Shown here: one piece after another, positions 3,586-63,396 of the stretch
Position numbering within the stretch: position 1 is the first letter of the stretch
Layout of the letters: each line of letters starts with the position of its first letter
IMG/VR virus record: IMGVR_UViG_3300022602_004810
Span: 23,068 to 87,067 of that record
Strand: one strand, 5' to 3'
From: a virus
DNA length: 64,000 nucleotides
Made by a program: the position numbers and the translations under genes
Notes under the pieces: generated by a model
Databases searched by the model: none
What the model was told of the DNA's origin: nothing
What the model saw: the letters and a program-made list of their open reading frames with translations, nothing else

Positions 3586-5841
3586 TTATCCCAATCCTTG
3601 TGGGCTCTTGCCACTCATTTGTGAATCTAATTCTGCTTTCATTTGAGGTAAAGCCTGTAATATTGTATACGCTGACTGTGTAGGATCGGACGAATTCGGA
3701 TTAGCCTTAACTGTAGCATAAACAACATCGTAGGTGCCTGTAAACATTACCGCATAAGGTCCCCATCCATGGGATGAAGCTTCGCTACCATTTATTATTC
3801 GCCACAGATTATCAGTAGATGAATTAGCTATAGCTTCTATGGTTACTGTACCACCACTGGTACGTTGGAAATCTCTAGAAACTGTAATTGGATATGCCAC
3901 ATTTGTTGCGCCTGGTTCGGGTGGTGGCGGAGTAGTCTGTACTGGAGGAATACCGTTATCAGCAAGTAGTTTATTATTCTTACCTTCTGCTAGACTGGCT
4001 TTAATTGCTTCTCCACCAGGAGTTGCTGTATTAGCTAAATTATGCAGTATATCAGAAACGCCGCTACCGCTGGTGTCTGCCCCAAATTTATGCAGACTTT
4101 TAGCAAAGCTCATCGAAGTTCCGAGCGTATTTGGTGGCGGGCTAGTTAAATCAACACCTGCAACATTCGTTATCAGGTTTACCGCTCCTGCAATCGATGT
4201 AGATAGCAATGCTATAGCACTTGCTGCATCAGTTGTAACAGTTTTTAAAAAACTAGTAATACTAGGACCACCTGCTAGATGCTGAGTAAAGTCAGTCATA
4301 TTAGGTAATCCCAATGGACCACTACCAGAGCCTGTCATTACATTTAGTGTAGGTTGATTTTTTGTTATTAAACTGTTTAAACTAGGAAAGGCCGCTGTGT
4401 GTAATGGTGTCTGAACTGACTGGATTTGATTAAATAATGACCCAGCGGCACCTGCATCTTTTAATGTTCCTGCACCTATATCTGTTAGATGTGATGTTAA
4501 CCCACTAACACCTCCCGTTAATCCAGCAATTGCAGATGGATCAGCTAGTTTAGTCGGATCACCTAAATCTTTAAGATTTTGAATGCCGCCTGTTAATGAA
4601 GGTAAACTTTGTCCAGGCGATAGTGATGCTCCCATGGCTGTACTAGGTGTACTAAAACCAGTAGTAGTAAGACTATCTGCCGCAGATGTACTATTGCCTA
4701 GAACCAGTGTGCCTGCTTGCGAAGCAAACAAGTTCTTTTGTGTTTTACCAGCATTGGTTAAATCAGTACTAGCAGCATTTGCAGAATTTAATGCTGATTC
4801 AACGTCATTATTTCTAAAATTAACTAACTGTAGTTTAACAGCATCATCAGGTAACGGTGATATTTCATTTTTAGAAATGTTATTTGCATCTGTAAAACAT
4901 TGTTGGAAATCTTGATATTCGGGTCCTAATATTGTAGGTTTAATTGCTGTATATTCTGCAAGACTTGTAGTACTTTGTATGAGAGGAATAGCCGTACCGT
5001 GTACCCAATCTACCCAGTTGTTTGCTCTAGTAATAATATCCTGTAGTTCAGCTAGAATAGCATCAGCATTACTATCCCCTGTAGATTCAGTAGCGGCTAT
5101 CTCGGGTGCTACATCAAATTGGTCAGCTACAACACTTAAAGCACTAGGGTCAGTAATGCCGCTCATTACTTGATTAATCTTGTCTGCGTATATAGGATTA
5201 TCTAGATCATCTATAGGCACACCTGCATCAGCTAATCTTCTATTAACACCTGTGGCATTGGCTAGTTTATTATCAGTTAACGATTTAACTAATCCAAGAC
5301 TACTACCAAAATCCTTAACATCGCCACCATTGTACATAGTGCCTGTGGCCTGCATAAGTGCGCCAGCCGCTGGCAAACTACCTAAAGCATTTGACATGCC
5401 ACGATCTGCAGCACTGCCCATGTCAGTAATACCTGGGCCAAGATCACTATAGTTCATGTTAGCCATAAAGTCAGATGCTTTACGTAGCTCTTGCGAATCT
5501 TGTATATGACCATGAAGTTGACTAAAGAAACTACCAAAAGCCGCATGATTTGGCGAACTACCAAATCCCATGCTAGTATGAAATGAAGTTAAACTAGACA
5601 GTGTAGCTGTTGCAGCCGCACTATTTGCATCAGCTACGTTTGCTGATATTGTCTGTAACTGTGCTACTACATTGGCCACAGACGGTGCTAAACAAAGTGC
5701 TGAACCTTGATTAATTCCAATCATTGCGGTTAATGTAGCAGGCGTTAGGGCCGATGCAGCTTGCCCTAACGTAGTTTTTTGATTTTCAGCTATTACAGTG
5801 CTAGCTTGCCCTGTAACAAGGCTTATATCGTGTTCAGACAT
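3586..5841 (-). CDS. Large Ala/Ser/Thr-rich protein, probably virion-associated
   Basis: A 751-residue protein rich in Ala, Ser, Thr, Gly and Asn, with no membrane segment or enzyme motif that I recognise. Two short related segments occur far apart: NRRLADAGVPID near residue 205 and NKLLADNGIPPV near residue 620, followed by a proline run. The last ~100 residues look like a separate globular domain (ITVSRDFQRTSGGTVTIEAI). Size and composition suggest a structural, baseplate- or tail-associated protein, but this is inference only. It is coupled to the Sm-like gene upstream. Confidence 0.65.
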   Translation of the reverse strand: MSEHDISLVTGQASTVIAENQKTTLGQAASALTPATLTAMIGINQGSALCLAPSVANVVAQLQTISANVADANSAAATATLSSLTSFHTSMGFGSSPNHAAFGSFFSQLHGHIQDSQELRKASDFMANMNYSDLGPGITDMGSAADRGMSNALGSLPAAGALMQATGTMYNGGDVKDFGSSLGLVKSLTDNKLANATGVNRRLADAGVPIDDLDNPIYADKINQVMSGITDPSALSVVADQFDVAPEIAATESTGDSNADAILAELQDIITRANNWVDWVHGTAIPLIQSTTSLAEYTAIKPTILGPEYQDFQQCFTDANNISKNEISPLPDDAVKLQLVNFRNNDVESALNSANAASTDLTNAGKTQKNLFASQAGTLVLGNSTSAADSLTTTGFSTPSTAMGASLSPGQSLPSLTGGIQNLKDLGDPTKLADPSAIAGLTGGVSGLTSHLTDIGAGTLKDAGAAGSLFNQIQSVQTPLHTAAFPSLNSLITKNQPTLNVMTGSGSGPLGLPNMTDFTQHLAGGPSITSFLKTVTTDAASAIALLSTSIAGAVNLITNVAGVDLTSPPPNTLGTSMSFAKSLHKFGADTSGSGVSDILHNLANTATPGGEAIKASLAEGKNNKLLADNGIPPVQTTPPPPEPGATNVAYPITVSRDFQRTSGGTVTIEAIANSSTDNLWRIINGSEASSHGWGPYAVMFTGTYDVVYATVKANPNSSDPTQSAYTILQALPQMKAELDSQMSGKSPQGLG

Positions 5842-11671: not shown

Positions 11672-11998
11672 TTATACAGCAAATGATGATCCGCAACCGC
11701 ATGTACTTTGAGCATTTGGATTTTTAATACTAAAGTTACTACCAGCCAGGGTTTCAACATAGTCAATCTCAGCGCCTTGTAGATATTGACTGCTCATGCT
11801 ATCCACTAACACAGCGATATCTTCAATTTGAATTTCAAAATCTTCTTCGTTTTTTTGATCATCAATAGTAAAGCCATAGCTGAATCCACTACAGCCACCA
11901 CCTTGTACAAATACTCGTAAGCGACTTGTACTAGGTTCGTCACTCATAATTTCTTTAATTTTCTTAACTGCGTTTGGTTGTATATTAATTAGTTCCAT
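11672..11998 (-). CDS. iscA: A-type Fe-S cluster carrier (IscA/ErpA family)
   Basis: A 108-residue A-type carrier with the three conserved cysteines: C36 in [11 protein letters not shown] and C100/C102 in the CGCGSSF end. The family accepts Fe-S clusters from scaffold proteins and passes them to apo-enzymes. It overlaps the 3' end of iscU by 14 bases, so both are made together. A phage copy beside iscU and three radical SAM genes points to cluster supply for phage-encoded enzymes. Confidence 0.92.
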
Positions 11999-12371
11999 TT
12001 TGTTTTTTCCTATAATCTTCTATTGCTGATTTAATTGCATCTTCTGCTAATACACTACAGTGTATCTTTACCGGCGGTAACGCAAGTTCTTCAGCAATCT
12101 CACTATTCTTAATCGCTTGAGCTTGGTCAAGCGTGCGGCCCTTAAGCCATTCAGTGACGAGGCTCGAACTAGCAATCGCACTTCCGCATCCGTAAGTTTT
12201 AAACTTTGCATCAGTGATAATGCCATCATCTACCTCTATTTGTAATTTCATAACATCACCACAAGCTGGCGCACCTACCATACCAGTGCCCACTTTGGGT
12301 GAATTTTTGTCTAAGCTACCTACATTTCTAGGATTTTCGTAATGTTCTAATACCTGCGCTGAATAGGCCAT
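11985..12371 (-). CDS. iscU: Fe-S cluster scaffold protein IscU
   Basis: A 128-residue full-length IscU. Cluster ligands C37 (with D39 in PACGD), C62 (YGCGSA) and C105 ([12 protein letters not shown]) are all present, as is the LPPVK loop (98-102) recognised by the HscA chaperone. It therefore probably works with host IscS and HscAB. TTGGAG precedes the ATG, and a sigma70-type promoter lies at 12397-12425. The TAG of the upstream radical SAM gene is in frame with this gene and no other stop lies between. Confidence 0.95.
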
Positions 12372-12396
12372 ACTAAATCTCCAATAGTTGACTAAT

Positions 12397-12425
12397 ATAC
12401 TACACTATTTATTATTCGTTGTCAA
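12397..12425 (-). promoter_or_regulatory. Sigma70-type promoter upstream of iscU
   Basis: The minus strand reads TTGACA (12420-12425), 17 bases and TAGTAT (12397-12402), about 25 bases before the iscU ATG. The -35 box lies inside the last codons of the radical SAM gene. Confidence 0.6.
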
Positions 12426-13256
12426 CCAGTGTGCAGGAAATCGTACTTGATCTAACTCTTCTTCTTTAATTTCTTTAATTTCAAATACAGGTTTGGACAT
12501 TTCTTTATATTCACCTATTGCAGAATGCCATGTTAAATCTTGTGGGCAGAACTCACACTGTAGAATGTTTTCATCTTTGGTTGCAACAAAATCTTGCAGG
12601 TCCTCTTCAGAACAATCTGCTGTTAAAGGTCTGTAACTATATAGTAATTCACGTTGTCTATCATCCAATCTAAGGTCAAATTGTTTATCAAATTCAGGAA
12701 GGCCGCTCATGGCAGGGCATTTATACAATTTACCATTATACATAGTATGATCATGTTTCATATCACAGGCATTAAATGCGTTTATAGCATTACTATTGTG
12801 CAGGATCCAATGATCATCTTGTTTAATCACGGTACTTTGATGGAAAGTAAATGCTTCTATCGGTCCTGCTAGGGATTTCCATTGTTCTTTTAAAGCATCT
12901 GCTGTTTCTGGATTATGCAGACTTAGCCCAAATCCAACAGCATATTCATCCCATAATTTTTTATATTGAGGTTTGAAGTACGTACCGTTTGTTTGTATCA
13001 TAATCACAGCATTAGGCCATAGTCTGCGCAGATTAGCACACCATTTTTCTAAGTCAGGATTAAGGGTAGGTTCACCACCTATAATAGTAATACGTGGTAA
13101 ATCTAATCGTTTACTCCATGCTTCGTATTCAGCTGCATGATCATCCCAATATTGATGGCCCTTAAAGTGCAAATCATTGAAACGATTGCATCCACGACAG
13201 GCGAGATTACATACATTGGTTATATAGAATTCTACTACAGGAAATATCTTGATCAT
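12405..13256 (-). CDS. Radical SAM enzyme 1 (SPASM/twitch-like)
   Basis: A 283-residue protein with the radical SAM triad C16-x3-C20-x2-C23 (CNLACRGC) and the SAM-binding IIGGEPTLNPDL (about 58-69). C-terminal cysteines (ACDMKH, KLYKCPAM, ADCSEED, LQCEFCPQ) are spaced like an auxiliary Fe-S domain. Such enzymes modify peptides, nucleotides or sugars by radical chemistry; the substrate is not evident. It lies directly upstream of iscU. Its 5' region has TAAATACTAG immediately before the ATG. Confidence 0.88.
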   Translation of the reverse strand: MIKIFPVVEFYITNVCNLACRGCNRFNDLHFKGHQYWDDHAAEYEAWSKRLDLPRITIIGGEPTLNPDLEKWCANLRRLWPNAVIMIQTNGTYFKPQYKKLWDEYAVGFGLSLHNPETADALKEQWKSLAGPIEAFTFHQSTVIKQDDHWILHNSNAINAFNACDMKHDHTMYNGKLYKCPAMSGLPEFDKQFDLRLDDRQRELLYSYRPLTADCSEEDLQDFVATKDENILQCEFCPQDLTWHSAIGEYKEMSKPVFEIKEIKEEELDQVRFPAHWLTTNNK

Positions 13257-22056: not shown

Positions 22057-23083
22057 GTAACTTTTTCCTCATTAGTTCAATTTTTAACTTACTTGATTCT
22101 CTAGCATCTAAAATGCTCTTAAGCACAAATAGTTTACCATATTTAACCACAGCTTCATTAATATCTTTACAGGTCTCTTGCCATACAGGAAAGCTAGCCG
22201 ACCAGCCATATTCCATTGCGTTTTGTAGTAATTTTGCACCCGCCTTATCACGATCTGCCACTACAATAACTTCTTTGCCTAAGCTCTCAATGATTTCAGC
22301 TTGAGTTTCACTACACTCATTGCTCATGACTGCAACACCATCTACTGACATCGCATCAAATGGGCCTTCACAGACTATGACAAACTTACTATCAGGTAGT
22401 TGATTGTTTATGTTGAACACAAAGTTAGGTTCATAGTTGCTATAGTATTTAGGCTTAACGCCATCTACAAACGCACGGCTAGTGTAGCCAATGGTCCGAC
22501 CTTCCCAAATCATAGGAATGATCACACGTTGATGCAGGCTGTGTTCTGTGCTATCAGTCCAATAAAAGTCATACTTATCGTAGTTCATTTTACGACTGTT
22601 TGTGTAGTCAACAGCTGAGTTTAGTAGTGGGGGTACATTTTTAAAATCACTCAATGTGTAAAATGATATGAATTGCTGAAAGCTAAGTGCATCTTTGGGC
22701 AGTTCTCTGACCTTAAACTCAATCTTTTCTTCAGCTTCAGCTTTAACTTCTTCTGGGTTAACTAGTTCACGGATACGAATAGCTTCAATAACTAGGCGTT
22801 TAATGTCGTTTTCATCAGCACCTAACCAACGTAAGAGTTTACGGAATTTGAATGTTAAGTGACGACCTGGTTGATAACTAGCTTTGAAGTTACAATTGAA
22901 ACACGAATATGAGATACTCCCGTCAGCATTAGCCGTAAGTCCGCCTCTGCCTCTAGTGTCGGCTGTTTCGCCGTTGTGTACGCAACATGGAGCATTTCCT
23001 GAAATCCAGCCAGATGGACTAGACTTTGTTTTGCGTCCAGTTTTCCATAAGGCTACAGTAAAATCTGATATTATTTTAATCAA
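22049..23083 (-). CDS. 61: DNA primase, DnaG/TOPRIM type
   Basis: A 344-residue primase. An N-terminal zinc-binding region has CCVH (33-36) and CFNC (61-64). A TOPRIM core follows with FVIVCEGPFDAMS (catalytic Glu) and VVADRDKAG (D-x-D). It would make RNA primers with the helicase encoded just downstream. The size and gene order match the primase of aquatic T4-like phages. It overlaps the GIY-YIG gene by eight bases. Confidence 0.9.
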   Translation of the reverse strand: MIKIISDFTVALWKTGRKTKSSPSGWISGNAPCCVHNGETADTRGRGGLTANADGSISYSCFNCNFKASYQPGRHLTFKFRKLLRWLGADENDIKRLVIEAIRIRELVNPEEVKAEAEEKIEFKVRELPKDALSFQQFISFYTLSDFKNVPPLLNSAVDYTNSRKMNYDKYDFYWTDSTEHSLHQRVIIPMIWEGRTIGYTSRAFVDGVKPKYYSNYEPNFVFNINNQLPDSKFVIVCEGPFDAMSVDGVAVMSNECSETQAEIIESLGKEVIVVADRDKAGAKLLQNAMEYGWSASFPVWQETCKDINEAVVKYGKLFVLKSILDARESSKLKIELMRKKLHA

Positions 23084-46997: not shown

Positions 46998-47026
46998 ATT
47001 ATAGACTATTTTGAGCTAGTTGTCAA
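46998..47026 (-). promoter_or_regulatory. Consensus sigma70 promoter
   Basis: Minus strand TTGACA (47021-47026), 17 bases, TATAAT (46998-47003): a perfect match, 33 bases before the ATG at 46965, overlapping the stop of the glycan gene upstream. Confidence 0.9.
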
Positions 47027-48123
47027 CCGTTTTTTGCTAAAAAGTGGTTGGAAAACCACTCAATTGGATGACATTCAGTACCAAACTCATGGCCATGTGC
47101 TCGCATTGGTATTCTAGCCATAGCCACAAAAGCCGCATCACGTGCTTGTTGTAGTAGATAAATGTCTTGATCTGGATTTACATCTAGTTCGCTGATATGC
47201 CCTTTCCAGAATAAGGGAATATCTTCTACACACCAGCGTGCTTCTACCCCATTGGGGTCTATGCTGTATAATCGCTCAGCGGCAGCATACAAGTTAGTCC
47301 AACCTTCCTTGCGTTCTGGATAACCAATACGCACCTTCATGGTCTTGTCAAAGAAACCTGGAGGTACACAAAGTGGAGGAGCAATAGGGTTTAGCATTTT
47401 ACCTACATGACTGTAACCATCATAGTGGCGTGTTAGTTCACGTGTAGGACTATAAACTGTACCTGGTATCTTGTATCCGTATTGCCAACCCAGAGGGTCT
47501 GAGCGATACATGTTATCTTCACCACAGTCTGTTTCAAACCAGTAACGTTTAAATCTGCTGGCCTTCATCATGATTAGTGAGTCTACTGTGTCCCAGGTGA
47601 ACTTGATAAAATTCTTATCCTCAGTTAGTTCGCCATTCTGCGCTATAGTCATGCGCATCTGCTCGGGCCAATGACTGTAATACATAACAGCGTTAGGATC
47701 CGGGTCTGCATTTACAAGTTTAATACCAGCTGAAATTACTTCCAGGTCAGTGTCAATAAAGATATGGTCATCGTTGCCTTCATACCAAACTAGCTCATTG
47801 TCATCAGTAAAACGTTCTGTACACATTTCACGCCAAGTTCTGGTACGATCAATTCTATGCCAATTGACTTCTAGTTTATCTTCTGGGAAGATGCTTAACA
47901 TGTAAGCATATAGTTCTTCTTGACGTGGCGCAAACTCTGCTAGGTCAATGTAGAATACAAACTTGTCTACCACGGGTGCCATAACTGCACGACTAGCAAG
48001 ACAGTATTTGAATATGTCAAATCTGTTGCTTACTGGTAGCCAACTAGCGCGATCATAGACTGTGCCAGCATATGGCCAAGTCATTTTAATGTCTGTGATT
48101 TTTACGTTAAAGAAAACTATCAT
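47023..48123 (-). CDS. Glycosyltransferase-like protein, tandem paralog A
   Basis: A 366-residue protein, about half identical by eye to the next gene upstream. Both share FVFYIDLAE, EGNDDHIFID (a D-D-H motif like the nucleotide-sugar site of GT-A enzymes), MYYSHWPEQMR and RHYDGYSHVG. No named family is assigned, but the context of sugar genes and the acidic site suggest a glycosyltransferase. The upstream paralog ends in TAG and lies in the same frame with only two codons between. Confidence 0.65.
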   Translation of the reverse strand: MIVFFNVKITDIKMTWPYAGTVYDRASWLPVSNRFDIFKYCLASRAVMAPVVDKFVFYIDLAEFAPRQEELYAYMLSIFPEDKLEVNWHRIDRTRTWREMCTERFTDDNELVWYEGNDDHIFIDTDLEVISAGIKLVNADPDPNAVMYYSHWPEQMRMTIAQNGELTEDKNFIKFTWDTVDSLIMMKASRFKRYWFETDCGEDNMYRSDPLGWQYGYKIPGTVYSPTRELTRHYDGYSHVGKMLNPIAPPLCVPPGFFDKTMKVRIGYPERKEGWTNLYAAAERLYSIDPNGVEARWCVEDIPLFWKGHISELDVNPDQDIYLLQQARDAAFVAMARIPMRAHGHEFGTECHPIEWFSNHFLAKNG

Positions 48124-48129
48124 GTTATT

Positions 48130-49206
48130 CTACTCTTTGTATATAAAGTGTTTTTGGAACCAAGTTTCTGGATGACCTTCATCGCTGGTAAATTGGTGTC
48201 CATATGGATTCATTGGCACACGGGTCATGGCTATCATAGCACGATCACGTGCTTGGTGTAGTTCTTCTTGGGTAACTTCTGAGTTAGTCGCAATAGCCTT
48301 GATGCGACCTTGCCAGAATAGGGGAATGTCTTCTTCTACCCAACGATAGTCTGTGCCATTCTTGTCAGCATTGTATAACCATTCAGCCACGGGGTTAAAG
48401 TTAGTCCAACCTTCTTTGCGATCACTAAAGCCAATGCGTATCTGCATCTCACCTTCAAAGAAGCCAGGTGGAATATACAAGGGTGGTGCTACGTTTACAC
48501 AGCCAAGTCCCACATGACTATATCCGTCATAGTGACGTACTAGTTCTTTAGTTGGAGAATATACATTATGCTGTATCTTAAGCCCATATTGATTAAGGAA
48601 GTCTGATCTGTAGACTACATCACTGCCGCAGTCTGTGTCAAACCAATACTTCTTAAATCTACCAGCTTTCATTAGGTGGATAGCATCAAAGTTCTCCCAA
48701 TGGAACTTGATAAAATTACCATCTTCAGTTAGCTCGCCGCCCCAACGTAGACTGTTACGCATCTGTTCAGGCCAATGACTATAGTACATGATAGCATTGG
48801 GATCAGGATCCGCATTAAGTGTGGCTATGGCCGCACGTATCATATCTAAGTTACTGTCTATAAAGATATGATCGTCATTACCTGAATACCAAATTAGCTC
48901 ATTGTCGTCAGCGAACTTAGCAGCAGCTTCGCGCCATTCATTAGTGTGATTAAGACGATGCCACGTGACTTCTAATTTTTCTTCAGGAAAGATTGACAGC
49001 ATGTAAGCATATAGTTCTTCACGACGAGGATCTAATTCTGCCAGGTCAATATAAAATACAAATTTGTCTACTAAGGGTTCTAGTACAGCGTGACTAGCAA
49101 GACAATACTTAAAGATATCAAACCTGCCAGAGTCTGGATACCACTCGCCACGGTGATAAGTACCAAGGCGATGATCAGTGACTTTTACACTTTTGAGGAC
49201 TATCAT
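48130..49206 (-). CDS. Glycosyltransferase-like protein, tandem paralog B
   Basis: A 358-residue paralog of the 47023 gene, with SGNDDHIFIDSNLD and the same conserved segments, so the pair arose by tandem duplication. It ends TAG, AAT, AAC, then the next ATG in the same frame. It starts within one base of the aldolase-like gene, so it is part of the sugar operon that begins at 52665. Confidence 0.65.
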   Translation of the reverse strand: MIVLKSVKVTDHRLGTYHRGEWYPDSGRFDIFKYCLASHAVLEPLVDKFVFYIDLAELDPRREELYAYMLSIFPEEKLEVTWHRLNHTNEWREAAAKFADDNELIWYSGNDDHIFIDSNLDMIRAAIATLNADPDPNAIMYYSHWPEQMRNSLRWGGELTEDGNFIKFHWENFDAIHLMKAGRFKKYWFDTDCGSDVVYRSDFLNQYGLKIQHNVYSPTKELVRHYDGYSHVGLGCVNVAPPLYIPPGFFEGEMQIRIGFSDRKEGWTNFNPVAEWLYNADKNGTDYRWVEEDIPLFWQGRIKAIATNSEVTQEELHQARDRAMIAMTRVPMNPYGHQFTSDEGHPETWFQKHFIYKE

Positions 49207-54625: not shown

Positions 54626-55370
54626 AGTATTCTGTTTCTTCCTTTAGGCTTCTTGAACGAGGCATAAATTCTTTTGTTAAACGCCATTCGAGTGTTTCTT
54701 TGTTAGTGATATGATGGAATCCCCAATTGCGTTGACGATCAACCCAGGGTATTTGTGTTTGTACCTGTAGCTTACGAGCCAAGCCACCTTCATCCATTGG
54801 ACACCAACCATAGTAGAATATAACTAGTTCTTTAGTAGTATAACTTTCATAATGACGACCAGGTACAGGATACTGCACATTCATATTGTGTAGACTGCGT
54901 GCTCGACGTTCGCGGAAGTTTTCTGTATATCTGCCGTTGAAAGTATATCCGCCCTCAAAGCTAAAGCCATCTGTCTTTTGTTTGTATAGAGGAATACCAG
55001 GGTCTACTAGGCGCTCTCTATCACAGTCAACATAAAACATAGTAGGCAATAGTAGTTGCTGGTTAGCCACATCATTCATTAGGCTGTAGTCACCTATCAT
55101 TAGCTCTGTTACGTTAAGACAAATGCGCCAACCTTCAATGCCACGCTCAATGTCCATAACTTCATAGTCAATATTGTCTGCCTGGAAGTCAGGATTGCGG
55201 CTAGTTACAATATCCCAAGTTGGGCATAGTTCTTTGACGATTTCTGTACTGCGATCAGTACTATGGTAGTCAATGATAATACCGTGATCAAATATCTGCT
55301 TGTGATGGTTAAGGAACCACGGTAATAGATATTCTTCATTGTAGATATGACAGATAATAGTTTTCTTCAA
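54582..55370 (-). CDS. GT2-like glycosyltransferase, paralog 1 of 3
   Basis: A 262-residue GT-A-type protein. ICHIYNEEYLLPWFLNHH, GIIIDYHSTDRSTEIV and FYVDCDRERL form the NEE-D-H-S-T-D pattern of Glyco_tranf_2_4-like enzymes, which move sugars from nucleotide donors. The start is TTG, overlapping the TGA of the gene upstream. Two paralogs follow upstream. It lacks their closing Q-E-[WF] segment. Confidence 0.78.
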   Translation of the reverse strand: MKKTIICHIYNEEYLLPWFLNHHKQIFDHGIIIDYHSTDRSTEIVKELCPTWDIVTSRNPDFQADNIDYEVMDIERGIEGWRICLNVTELMIGDYSLMNDVANQQLLLPTMFYVDCDRERLVDPGIPLYKQKTDGFSFEGGYTFNGRYTENFRERRARSLHNMNVQYPVPGRHYESYTTKELVIFYYGWCPMDEGGLARKLQVQTQIPWVDRQRNWGFHHITNKETLEWRLTKEFMPRSRSLKEETEYYVNKHESFSNLLQK

Positions 55371-56173
55371 AATTCTTGTCCTGTAATGCGTCTGTTGTGT
55401 TCTAAGATATGTGCAATTTCCTGTCTAAGATCTTTGCTTTTTGGTTGATGGTGATCTCTTTGTAGTCTTAAGTGTAGCTCTGCATCAGAAAAATGCGGAT
55501 TGATTCCACCCTTTTCCGCAGCAATCTGTGTTTTTCTTTTAATGCCTTCTTCTGATGTGCTGTACCATCCATAGTAGAATAAGACTAGATCATCAAAGGA
55601 TTTAGCACGGCCTCCGCCAAAGTGACGGCCAATTTCATATTCTACCGGATAATTGTGTACGCTGCGATTCATCCTGCCCATGATAGTACCATGTGAACTG
55701 CCCCAGTTTTCAAATTCATCATAACCCCAATAACGTTGTTCGTGTAAGGGTATGTCATGTGATAAGGATACTGGCCCTTTACCTGGATCTTCCATGTCAA
55801 CAAATACATAGTTGCCTATTAGGTATTGTGTATGCTCAGGTCTATCATCAAGATGATCTGTGTTGCCATACAAGAATTCAGTGATGTTCAAGGTCATGCG
55901 CCAGCCATCAAGGCCGTGCTCAATTGACATAACTTCTTGATCTATCCAATGCGAATCTAAAAAATCTTGATTGTGTGTATCAACTGAAGCATCGCGAGGA
56001 ACATGTGTACGTATTTCCCATGTAGGGCATAGTTCTTTAATTATTTCAACACTGCGATCAGTGCTATGATAGTCAATCATAATGCCATGATCAAACACGG
56101 CTCTATGATGTTTTAACCACCACGGTAGTAGATATTCTTCGTTATAGAAATGAGAAACAACGGTCTTTTTCAC
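55367..56173 (-). CDS. GT2-like glycosyltransferase, paralog 2 of 3
   Basis: A 268-residue paralog of its neighbours (VVSHFYNEEYLLPWWLKHH, IMIDYHSTDRSVEI, YVFVDMEDPGKG). The start is GTG, directly after the TAG of paralog 3 and in the same frame, with AGGAG six bases before it. The ending ITGQEF matches the CTGQEW of paralog 3, so the two are closest to each other. Confidence 0.78.
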   Translation of the reverse strand: MKKTVVSHFYNEEYLLPWWLKHHRAVFDHGIMIDYHSTDRSVEIIKELCPTWEIRTHVPRDASVDTHNQDFLDSHWIDQEVMSIEHGLDGWRMTLNITEFLYGNTDHLDDRPEHTQYLIGNYVFVDMEDPGKGPVSLSHDIPLHEQRYWGYDEFENWGSSHGTIMGRMNRSVHNYPVEYEIGRHFGGGRAKSFDDLVLFYYGWYSTSEEGIKRKTQIAAEKGGINPHFSDAELHLRLQRDHHQPKSKDLRQEIAHILEHNRRITGQEF

Positions 56174-57337
56174 CTACCACTCCTGCCCTGTACATCTATG
56201 ATGATGTGCTAGTATGCTGGCAATTTGTGGACGTAGGTCAGTGCTTACAGGCTGTTGGTGATGTCTATACATGTTTATATACTCATCTCGTTCGTGTGTA
56301 TGAATTCCAGTCATACCATCGTGAATTCTAGCACGTATCTGTGTTTTTCTTGCTAGTCCACGCTCGCCAATATCTGCCCAACCATAGTAGAATAAGACTA
56401 GATCATCAAAGGTATAGTCTGTTCTTGGATAGTGTCGTCCACCTGTGTACTGCACTGGATGGTTATGTAGACTACGGTTTAAACGACTCCACTCACCTTT
56501 GCCGGGGCCATAAGCAATACCAGGATCTCTATTAGTATCGTAGTCATGGAATCCCCAATAACGTTGTTCGTGTAAGGGGCGATCATATGTTAACTCTGGA
56601 CATTTAGCTGGATCTTCCATATCAACAAACACATAATTTGTGATCATGTACTGTGTTGGGTTTGTAGTATTTGTTAGATGATCGAGATTGCCGTATAACA
56701 TTTCGGTAATGTTCATTGCCATGCGCCAGCCATCTAGGCCACGTTCAATATCCATGATTTCTTCATCAACTGCGTTGCCATTAAAGTGTTCGTTACGACT
56801 AGGAACTATTTCCCAAGTAGGGCAAATCTCACGGATAATATCTCTAGTGCGATCAGTACTAGCATAGTCTACAATAATACCATGATCATAGACATGTTTG
56901 TGATGTTTTAACCACCATGGCAATAAGAACTCTTCGTTGTAACACTGTGCTACCACTGTTCTTTTAGCTCTGCCCTGTGATATGTATGCGTCTGGTATAG
57001 GTTCTGGTATAGGCAGTGCTGGTTCAATTGGTTGTGGTAGACTATCAATGTCTTGTTGAGCTACCCCAAATGTATTTTTTAATTCTATTAATTCGCTATT
57101 TAGATGATCAACTTGATTCATCAAGTCAATGACGCCTTGTGCTTTTCTAACAACATCTTCAAGAGCGGCAATGCGCTGTGCTAGGTCAGTTTGTATGGCT
57201 TTTACTGATTCAAGTGTAGTCTGAGTAGGTTGCGTAGAGTCTATTAGACTAGCATGATCATTTAAATGTTGTGCAAGTGCAGCTAATAGCTCTGCATTAC
57301 GTCTTAGTTCTGCTGGATCTTGTATTGGTGCTGACAT
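56174..57337 (-). CDS. GT2-like glycosyltransferase, paralog 3 of 3, with coiled-coil N-terminus
   Basis: A 387-residue protein. The first ~115 residues form a helical/coiled-coil extension (IAALEDVVRKAQGVIDLMNQ) ending in a Pro-rich linker. The rest is the GT2-like domain (VVAQCYNEEFLLPWWLKHH, IIVDYASTDRTRDI, YVFVDMEDPAKC). The extension may oligomerise or tether the enzyme. Its TATAAATA box at 57362-57369 suggests late expression. It ends in TAG followed at once by paralog 2. Confidence 0.8.
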   Translation of the reverse strand: MSAPIQDPAELRRNAELLAALAQHLNDHASLIDSTQPTQTTLESVKAIQTDLAQRIAALEDVVRKAQGVIDLMNQVDHLNSELIELKNTFGVAQQDIDSLPQPIEPALPIPEPIPDAYISQGRAKRTVVAQCYNEEFLLPWWLKHHKHVYDHGIIVDYASTDRTRDIIREICPTWEIVPSRNEHFNGNAVDEEIMDIERGLDGWRMAMNITEMLYGNLDHLTNTTNPTQYMITNYVFVDMEDPAKCPELTYDRPLHEQRYWGFHDYDTNRDPGIAYGPGKGEWSRLNRSLHNHPVQYTGGRHYPRTDYTFDDLVLFYYGWADIGERGLARKTQIRARIHDGMTGIHTHERDEYINMYRHHQQPVSTDLRPQIASILAHHHRCTGQEW

Positions 57338-61565: not shown

Positions 61566-61763
61566 TCAATTGGATAAATCTGCATACTTTAGTCTAAAGT
61601 AAGTTTCAGTTGGACCAGATTCTAAAATATCTATAGTGTAACCTATATTACCACCATTCTGATAGCTACGACTTTTGCGAAACGGCCCATGCTTGATGTT
61701 ATTATCTTTGATGATCTGCTGAAACTCACGTAGTTCGTCGAACTTAATAAAGATCGTCAGCAT
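61566..61763 (-). CDS. Small protein, LRW-tail family
   Basis: A 65-residue protein (MLTIFIKFDELREFQQIIKD) ending ETYFRLKYADLSN, close to the ETMFRLKYA tail of the gene at 2138-2347. It overlaps the gene upstream by 20 bases. Function is unknown. Confidence 0.65.
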   Translation of the reverse strand: MLTIFIKFDELREFQQIIKDNNIKHGPFRKSRSYQNGGNIGYTIDILESGPTETYFRLKYADLSN

Positions 61764-62322
61764 CGTCTAGATCCTCGTCTTCATACTCCCAAATTTCTTG
61801 ACCGCTGGCATAGTCAAAGTAATATTTTTCGTTAGGTACTAACAAGCGGAATTGACCAGCATACTTAAGAGCCGCAATAAGTGCTTCATTTTTATCTGTT
61901 AGGTCACAGATAATAAAACTACTACCACAGCCACCGTGGACATGTTTGATTTCACTGTGTTGAAATTCACCTGCTAGTAGGGCATTGTGAAAATTTCCAC
62001 GATTGCCGGCAATGATACGATTGGCAATGAAGGGATGCGGTAAACGACGATCTAATAGACCTAACTTGCTGAGTGTGGCATTGTTATCGCGGTCAATACT
62101 TAGCTTACAGTCTTTGAATTTTAGGGAGCCTTTTGTATGCGGATTGTCACTCGTTTCCTTTGTGCTCCAAGGAATAGCAGCATCCACATGGTTGACATAT
62201 AGAGTTACCCCGTGTGCTTTTAACACCCACATAGGCACAGATGGATCCTCTAAATGTTTTTTGTTGAAGTGAAAAACAACGGTGTCGCATTTATACTCTA
62301 ATACATTATCAATCTATTTCAT
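61744..62322 (-). CDS. Conserved phage protein with in-frame TAG at codon 3
   Basis: The uninterrupted frame from GTG 62238 gives 164 residues (SVPMWVLKAHGVTLYVNH, PWSTKETSDNPHTKGSL, LIAALKYAGQFRLL). Reading upstream in the same frame gives plausible protein (DNVLEYKCDTVVFHFNKKHL) back to ATG at 62322, which has AAAAGGA eight bases before it, but codon 3 (62314-62316) is TAG. From 62322 the product would be 192 residues with the amber position. GTG 62238 also has AGAGGA upstream and is the conservative start. Function is unknown; the family seems present in related phages. Confidence 0.55.
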
Positions 62323-62387
62323 TTTATTTTTCCTTTTAGTTTCGCTAATTCTGCGTTTAGTTTCTTCAAACATAGGTCCTTTGTATT

Positions 62388-62463
62388 TGGAGGGCATGGG
62401 GTGAATCTAACAACCCCTCTTACCGTTTGCCGCGGTACGCATGTGACACTCTGCTACATGCCC
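62388..62463 (-). tRNA. tRNA-Cys(GCA)-like gene, unusual
   Basis: The minus strand folds into a cloverleaf: acceptor GGGCATG/CATGCCC, discriminator U with encoded CCA, anticodon stem TACCG/CGGTA and loop CGGCAAA with anticodon GCA. The U73 discriminator and GCA anticodon mark a cysteine tRNA. Oddities are G instead of U at position 33, a one-base bulge in the T stem (GGGTTG/CACCC) and A at position 56. It may be weak, decayed or specialised. It lies three bases from the next tRNA. Confidence 0.55.
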
Positions 62464-62466
62464 ATT

Positions 62467-62540
62467 TGGTGCGATTACTGAGAATTGAACTCAGGAACGG
62501 AGGTTTAGAATCTCCTGTTTTACCACTAAACTATAATCGC
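62467..62540 (-). tRNA. tRNA with CUA anticodon (amber suppressor type), best fold
   Basis: A 74-base cloverleaf with encoded CCA: acceptor GCGATTA/TAATCGC, D stem GTTT/AAAC, T stem CTGAG/CTCAG with loop TTCAATT, four-base variable loop and discriminator A. The anticodon stem is GGAGA/CCTCC with an A-C mismatch next to the loop TTCTAAA, which puts CUA at 34-36 after U33. An Arg UCU register would need a stem that does not pair. The amino acid is not predictable from sequence. Confidence 0.7.
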
Positions 62541-63257
62541 CTGTTTGGCTAATACATCTTTAGCCCATATATAATATCCACCACCACCAACAAATCCCAT
62601 AAGTTTTAATGATTTGTTGATACTTTTGTGAATATTGTATAATTCTATAAATTCAGTTTCTTTTCCGTACAAGACTGTATTTTCTACTTTGTAGTGATTG
62701 GCGTTTTTATATGCTATTTTACATTCATCACTACAATATGAAACACTGTTTCTTTTAACTGATATCTTTTTTAATATTACTGTGCCGCAATATTTACATT
62801 TACGGTTAGTTTTAAGTAGTCTACCTTTTTCCCACCCTTTAGGTATAGCATCTGTTATTTTTATTTTTTTATTAGTATTTTCTAATCTATTACAAATCCA
62901 CATAGTATTATGTTGTGAAGTTTTTTCTCCCACTAAAGTTTTTAAGTAATCTGCTCTAACAACTTTCAGTGTTTCGTATTTTTTTGATGTTATATATCTA
63001 TTTTGGTTATTAGATTTGGTTAACATCATTAAAAATGCAAATATCATTTTATGATATTCATTGCTATTTTTTTCGTAAATCTTTGTTAATAATAAGTGAC
63101 ATATAAAATGTTCTTTAGCAGAAAGATTTACTAAATTTTCAAGAGCATCACTACCACCTAACGATTTAGGAATAATATGATGCCGTTCTGTATATCCATT
63201 ATACCTATTATTTTTTCTATTTGCTACAATATTATCGTAGATTCTTTTGTAATTCAT
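62526..63257 (-). CDS. HNH homing endonuclease
   Basis: A 243-residue protein with the HNH core ERHHIIPKSLGGSDALENLV and LSAKEHFICHLLL, plus a zinc ribbon (CKYCG, YCSDECK) and a C-terminal DNA-binding helix. It is free-standing and more AT-rich than its surroundings, typical of a homing gene. Its last codons run into the tRNA gene, ending at TAG in the tRNA D-arm (62526-62528). Confidence 0.88.
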   Translation of the reverse strand: MNYKRIYDNIVANRKNNRYNGYTERHHIIPKSLGGSDALENLVNLSAKEHFICHLLLTKIYEKNSNEYHKMIFAFLMMLTKSNNQNRYITSKKYETLKVVRADYLKTLVGEKTSQHNTMWICNRLENTNKKIKITDAIPKGWEKGRLLKTNRKCKYCGTVILKKISVKRNSVSYCSDECKIAYKNANHYKVENTVLYGKETEFIELYNIHKSINKSLKLMGFVGGGGYYIWAKDVLAKQAIIV

Positions 63258-63372
63258 TTCTAAACTCTCTAACTATAATAGTATTTAGTTAGAATACCCG
63301 TTACCAGGAGTTTTAGAAGCTCTTGCTATGTCGATCAGCTTCAAGCGCATAACATATATTATATGGTCAAAC

Positions 63373-63396
63373 AAAAAGGCCTGTCAAGGCCTTTTT
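63373..63396 (-). terminator. Rho-independent terminator
   Basis: AAAAAGGCCT (63373-63382) and AGGCCTTTTT (63387-63396) form a perfect 10-base stem with a GTCA loop. On the minus strand it ends the outer-membrane protein gene. The ~115 bases from here to the HNH gene hold a TAAATACTAT late-like sequence and nothing else I can support. Confidence 0.9.

Follow-up and report, generated by a model that had tools for sequence, protein, structure and literature searches.

Comparative evidence for a proposed suppressor tRNA-licensed translational gate on a phage operon

In RF2 (prfB) autoregulation, an early in-frame UGA gates a translation-related gene by way of frameshifting. In code 15 phages (crAss-like, Lak), TAG occurs in frame across many genes and is abandoned as a stop; a role in the timing of gene expression has been proposed for its suppression in these phages (Borges et al., 2022, as cited in PMC10879173). 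An engineered feed-forward 'leak dampener', functional in E. coli with amber as well as opal stops, cuts leak (PMC7969014). Orphan suppressor tRNAs with CUA or UCA anticodons have been reported from phages not described as recoded: Atu_ph07 (PMC6102473), XacN1 (PMC5852040), Summit (PMC9022506), RsoM2USA (PMC8504454) and AP-J-162 (PMC11242549). Targets remained unidentified for XacN1 and Summit and a guess for RsoM2USA and Atu_ph07; in the latter, a UCA tRNA is the sole suppressor among 33 tRNAs and its targets were given as unspecified 'potential genes' (PMC6102473).

The locus analysed here lies in a 64,000-nucleotide stretch of IMG/VR virus record IMGVR_UViG_3300022602_004810 (positions 23,068 to 87,067), referred to as the window. 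Like the code 15 phages it pairs a phage CUA suppressor tRNA with an in-frame TAG; unlike them, one gate per module was found, always shortly after the start codon, and TAG continues to serve as a normal stop. Whereas RF2 uses frameshifting, the phage gate would use a dedicated cognate tRNA and stay in the same frame. Readthrough of the regulated gene in the engineered circuit likewise needs a suppressor tRNA; that circuit is synthetic, and the phage module, in which the gate has a fixed place at the gene start, would be its counterpart in nature. In comparison with the orphan tRNA reports, a specific target is named here for Agrobacterium phage Atu_ph07, Sinorhizobium phage Phosso and Rhizobium phage RHph_I1_18. 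A literature search that did not reach most subscription papers found no description of a stop-gated gene with a dedicated suppressor tRNA.

Features of the locus are given in Table 1. On the same strand as the tRNA and 3' of it, the leader reads AAAGGAAAAATAAA-ATG(62322)-AAA-TAG(62316-62314)-ATT-GAT-AAT and the frame is open to TAA at 61744. The 25 open codons between the TAG and GTG 62238 include no ATG, GTG or TTG. A preliminary description of this DNA had proposed a coding extension above the first usable start, reaching back to an ATG with a Shine-Dalgarno and broken by TAG at codon 3, and both the sequence and the homologs bear this out. Its choice of ATG 62322 as the start is likewise supported by homologs; not mentioned there is another in-frame ATG, 17 codons upstream (62373), which also has a Shine-Dalgarno. 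A 65-aa ORF without a Pfam match (window 61566-61763, minus strand), which shares its strand and 20 nt with the 3' end of the gated gene, is possibly a further coupled gene.

Table 1. Features of the gated locus in window coordinates
Feature	Position	Strand	Remarks
Promoter, sigma70-type	63358..63387	-	12/12 match, TTGACA-18-TATAAT
HNH endonuclease ORF	62526..63257	-	Pfam HNH 21.9 bits
tRNA, CUA anticodon (amber-decoding)	62467..62540	-	CCA encoded, A73, 31-39 mismatch
tRNA-Cys(GCA)-like gene	62388..62463	-	ARAGORN only; similar neighbour in L033
Shine-Dalgarno AAGGA	62331..62335	-	8 nt 5' of ATG 62322; relatives share layout
Amber-gated gene	61744..62322	-	192 residues with TAG decoded; true stop TAA
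Gate	62314..62316	-	In-frame TAG at codon 3, next base A
Conserved FHFNK domain	62065..62289	-	Without Pfam/PHROG family
C-terminal alpha/beta domain	61747..62064	-	Function not assigned, acidic tail

The anticodon of the tRNA was called as CTA by ARAGORN, whose label 'Pyl' stands for a CUA anticodon and nothing more. The gene, with its encoded CCA, scored 63.6 bits against the Rfam tRNA model (cut-off 29 bits) and was the sole Rfam match in the whole window. Its fold is a cloverleaf in which a 4-bp anticodon stem closes a 9-nt loop that has CUA at its centre. The CUA anticodon inferred in the preliminary description was confirmed by the ARAGORN call and this fold; a UCU anticodon or a pseudogene call, named there as refuting outcomes, was not obtained. 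UCU is ruled out, as the anticodon stem would not form. The last codons and the TAG stop of the HNH ORF lie inside the tRNA gene. This ORF resembles a homing insertion at the 5' side of the tRNA and is probably, by inference, a mobile insertion outside the mechanism. The Cys-tRNA-like gene beside the tRNA(CUA), both here and in L033 (5873-5945), has an unusual D arm. The promoter likely starts a transcript running HNH - tRNA(CUA) - tRNA(Cys) - gated gene, co-transcription being inferred.

The first eight relatives of the window gene, obtained by tblastn against IMG/VR, all start SD-ATG-(1-2 sense codons)-TAG-ATT. A search with the domain alignment returned 383 relatives, the best 80 of which were read, together with 62, 25 and 12 from other queries. 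Of the 82 loci examined with the domain search, 79 had an in-frame TAG near the start. In nearly all FHFNK relatives read, the TAG stands at codon 3 to 10 and the sense codons before it vary. The codon after TAG is ATT in 48 of 59 distinct window-type cases; ATC, ATA and AAA also occur in window-type genes, AAC in RHph_I1_18, and GTT, GAA and CAA elsewhere. The complete window-type genes (n = 57) end in TAA (39) or TGA (18) and never in TAG. Over the nine codons after TAG, compared across 74 distinct sequences, the pairwise difference by codon position was 0.19/0.14/0.43 and pN/pS was 0.20, a pattern expected of coding sequence; codon 9 is Val in 74/74, with 4 different codons used. The frame then reaches the near-invariant segment VFHFNKxHL...PMW. 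The FHFNK segment is embedded in longer proteins of jumbo phages; it forms the C-terminal part in Phosso and Atu_ph07, and the domain stands alone in RHph_I1_18. A scan for SD-ATG-(<25 codons)-TAG followed by a long ORF gave 151 candidates, with the window gene as the only large recurrent family; no other notable family was found except the PTH2-like gene described below, internal TAGs in long genes not being exhaustively covered. No FHFNK relatives were found in bacterial or archaeal genomes or plasmids, and no DNA-level relatives were found in cultured phages.

In approximately 125 distinct phage modules, a (SD)-ATG and 1-9 sense codons precede an in-frame stop, and a conserved protein follows the stop without a usable start between. 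TAG gates the FHFNK gene in 89 of these and the PTH2 gene in 35, and TGA gates the PTH2 gene in one; both genes were gated in none. The tally's 'none' class included L137 (gated on reading), L096 and L194/L195 (in which the TAG is present and an ATG follows further on) and L171 (whose motif match is unrelated). Where the FHFNK gene begins with an ordinary ATG (L020, L061, L120, L129, L136, L137, L139 and L147), a gated PTH2-type gene lies upstream, starting ATG TTG TAG ATT in L020 and ATG AAA TAG ATT in L061. Gated PTH2-like genes were likewise present upstream in L149 (with L120) and L139-L140. Alignment searches with PTH2 gave 37 loci, every one with an in-frame stop (36 TAG, 1 TGA). In jumbo phages, 20-35 start-less codons lie between the stop and the domain. 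Only L026 is without an identified gate, though a CUA tRNA is present. A PTH2 search found none in the 136-kb record of L026 and none in the window's own record, the latter search lacking a positive control from the same record. Some 95 bases 5' of the gated PTH2-like gene of L020, at 5223-5240, stands a second copy of ATGTTGTAGATTAA with no long frame behind it.

Judged by sequence profiles and a predicted structure, the partner gene has a PTH2 (peptidyl-tRNA hydrolase) domain or fold. PF01981 (PTH2) scored 24.9-73.9 bits in five of the six tested; the sixth, L120, fell below the cut-off, and so, outside this set, did L020 and L061. The AF2 model of the product matches PTH2 structures 2zv3, 1q7s and 3erj with E values of 2.5e-7 to 4.8e-7. 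By alignment, the catalytic Lys is present in Phosso and Atu_ph07 and apparently absent from the L020, L061, L120 and L129 groups. For distant PTH2 relatives in phiM12, SCTP-2, RAS14, XacN1 and Baka, the annotated gene begins at an ordinary start and includes the domain. The PTH2 stop and the FHFNK ATG overlap in L129, L139 and L147, and the three genes in Phosso overlap by 4 nt. Because of these overlaps it is inferred that a single gate can control both PTH2 and FHFNK by translational coupling.

A CUA tRNA was found on the same strand in the examined flank of 102 of the 124 amber modules, and all 144 CUA tRNA matches were co-oriented with the gene. The examined flank had none in the other 22, some flanks being short; searching the wider record of three tRNA-less modules located a CUA tRNA for L095 and L116 and none for L096. 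The 53 distinct CUA tRNAs share G1-C72, C2-G71 and an encoded CCA; the anticodon loop is CUCUAAA or UUCUAAA in 49, and the 31-39 pair is mismatched in 43. They have the CUA anticodon in common with tRNA-Pyl, which is characterised by G73, a 3-nt variable loop and a long anticodon stem, whereas the phage tRNAs have A73 (50/53), a 4-bp stem, ordinary arms and a variable loop unlike that of tRNA-Pyl; they lack the tRNA-Pyl architecture. Stop-codon reading has been linked to a shortened anticodon stem in other tRNAs, although in those it is the top pair that opens (PMC13092985). Of 79 distinct tRNAs, 42 have a promoter-like site with at least 10/12 matches no more than 80 nt 5' of them; the expectation derived from shuffled sequence was 1.5. 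At a relaxed threshold, tRNA-Cys (gca, 29 calls) and tRNA-Met (cat, 55 calls) genes were called near modules. Two other RNAs were observed: a tmRNA gene (L080 4700-5089, Rfam beta_tmRNA 152.6 bits) on a viral contig ~0.9 kb upstream of the gated gene, and a freshwater-2 RNA motif (L017 5558-5636, 67.8 bits) directly 5' of the CUA tRNA and on the other strand.

Three cultured phages carry the arrangement. In RHph_I1_18 the TAG is at codon 6, a CUA tRNA lies 12 nt downstream and the gated gene is absent from the annotation. The Phosso PTH2 gene begins ATG AAG TAT TAG GTT (TAG at codon 4) and is annotated from an internal Met; the phage has CUA tRNAs, one of them ~4.5 kb upstream of this gene. 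The PTH2 gene of Atu_ph07 begins ATG ATT GGC GAA CAC TTT TGA ATT, with TGA at codon 7, and in this analysis a UCA tRNA was found in that phage and a CUA tRNA was not. Such genes were missed earlier because gene callers start after the stop. With the stop read through, the Pfam PTH2 score rises from 60.6 to 72.9 bits in Phosso and from 59.2 to 73.9 bits in Atu_ph07; the gain comes from the first strand of the fold, whose codons lie between stop and annotated Met. Sequence comparison shows that gate codon and tRNA anticodon changed together in Atu_ph07 (TGA/UCA), in a single event that is hard to explain without suppression. In XacN1 (AP018399 ~243741, plus strand; L237), MK-TAG-TIKAMKLTAQ... 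precedes a 283-aa frame with an ATG five codons later; as an amber gate for the two CUA tRNAs of this phage it is a weak, unproven lead.

TAG ends 15 of the 78 window ORFs, in agreement with the earlier view that it is a normal stop in other genes here and that suppression is local rather than a full code change. As other window genes still end normally in TAG, the genome is not recoded; genome-wide recoding was rejected on this count and because the scan, not exhaustive for internal TAGs in long genes, showed no other large gated family besides the PTH2-like gene. With TAG still serving as a stop in those 15 ORFs, efficient suppression would extend other proteins. Three in-frame adjacent gene pairs on the minus strand of the window are split by TAG and would be fused by suppression, at 55367-57337 (glycosyltransferase-like), 47023-49206 (no Pfam match) and 11985-13256 (radical SAM + NifU_N). 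Pfam found no domain spanning the TAG in any of the three.

The FHFNK protein gave no Pfam or PHROG match and no notable match to PDB sequences. Its fold had no significant PDB match, and one unnamed homolog (A0A6J7WMG8, 160 aa) was found in BFVD. Comparison of the window protein with PTH2 by hhalign gave a probability of 0.3%, i.e. no homology. Because of the PTH2 partner gene, the protein is inferred to be probably translation- or tRNA-related.

A tRNA-licensed translational gate on a translation-related phage operon is, with considerable confidence, taken as the best explanation. In the proposed mechanism, a stop a few codons after the start would block the first gene of the operon, either FHFNK itself, as in the window, or the upstream PTH2-fold gene. 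The same phage encodes the cognate suppressor tRNA, in most cases upstream and on that strand, with a strong sigma70-type promoter often in front of it; tRNA and gene would share one transcript that starts at an early, host-type promoter. After infection the early transcript would yield only an aborted short peptide until processed, charged tRNA accumulates; once there is enough, ribosomes would read through and the operon would be expressed. Expression would thereby be delayed and subject to a leak-proof AND switch, in the form of a coherent feed-forward loop, with TAG not reassigned genome-wide. Readthrough by the phage tRNA is strongly supported as an inference from comparison, and with it the suggestion of the preliminary description that local suppression controls the full-length protein: the gate is conserved, the tRNA co-oriented and the post-TAG codons constrained, the gate shifts between genes, and the TGA/UCA pair is found. 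The elements of a feed-forward gate, an early in-frame stop and a cognate tRNA under linked control, are present at the sequence level; tRNA-dependent expression is inferred, as are co-transcription, the timing role and the function of the FHFNK protein. Points against the gate are the 22 amber modules without a CUA tRNA in the examined flank, of which L096 has none even in the wider record, L026, where no gate was identified, the continued use of TAG as a stop in 15 window ORFs, and the occurrence of the TGA/UCA change as a single event. The model rests on comparison and is without expression data: there is no peptide across the stop and no RNA mapping.

Other readings of the early stop were weighed. 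That the window gene is a pseudogene, or a normal gene with GTG 62238 as its start, is scarcely tenable. GTG 62238 is the first start listed for the gene, and the 160-aa BFVD homolog may be annotated from a downstream start; starting there would, however, remove VFHFNKKHLEDP, near-invariant across relatives, many homologs have no equivalent GTG at all, and purifying selection directly after the TAG is strong. The preliminary description had counted this GTG as counter-evidence, which fails on the first two of these points, and had held that homologs all starting at the GTG/ATG near 62238 would refute the extension; they keep the ATG-TAG start. It is very unlikely that no readthrough occurs, with ATG-N-TAG acting as a leader minigene and re-initiation at a non-canonical codon after TAG (e.g. 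AUU). The prevalence of ATT after TAG in window-type genes fits such a start, but the variety of other post-stop codons and the long start-less stretches of the jumbo phages do not, and this reading would account for neither the TGA/UCA switch nor the association with the tRNA. The two-codon minigene ATG-AAA-TAG, considered in the preliminary description, finds no support either, with TAG ranging from codon 3 to 10 behind varying sense codons and a post-TAG peptide without another start. The minigene/AUU-start reading was accordingly rejected on TAG position, next-codon variation, start-less stretches and the codon/anticodon switch.

More room is left for functional readings that accept readthrough. 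PTH2 acts on peptidyl-tRNA, and very short peptidyl-tRNAs are the kind of substrate that peptidyl-tRNA hydrolases handle. The gate might then be a termination sensor, its readthrough gauging release factor (RF1; RF2 in Atu_ph07) against suppressor tRNA, with PTH2 or FHFNK feeding back on termination or peptidyl-tRNA as in RF2 autoregulation. The PTH2 fold of the partner fits, as does a gate so early that termination or drop-off gives very short peptides or peptidyl-tRNAs; for FHFNK, however, no relationship to release factors or to PTH2 could be detected, and several PTH2-like members apparently lack the catalytic Lys in alignment. This remains a possibility, albeit an unlikely one. More doubtful still is a sensor of tRNA integrity or defence, in which the gate would open only if the phage tRNA survives host defences that cleave or acylate tRNA, and PTH2 would detoxify acylated tRNAs. 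A Pth that detoxifies the action of a tRNA-acetylating toxin has been reported (PMC9241777), and tRNA-Cys and tRNA-Met genes are often near modules, but no defence-linked gene was seen beside the module in the window.

On the tRNA-licensed gate as the preferred reading, the suppressor tRNAs of standard-code phages now have a named gene target, three cultured phages included, and their role becomes directly testable. If true, the arrangement is a natural version of a circuit designed by synthetic biologists. We lean, without firm conviction, towards a widespread natural class of suppressor-tRNA-licensed operons in standard-code phages, in which a movable stop gate on a PTH2 + FHFNK translation-takeover module may be the general reason for the 'orphan' suppressor tRNAs of many large phages.
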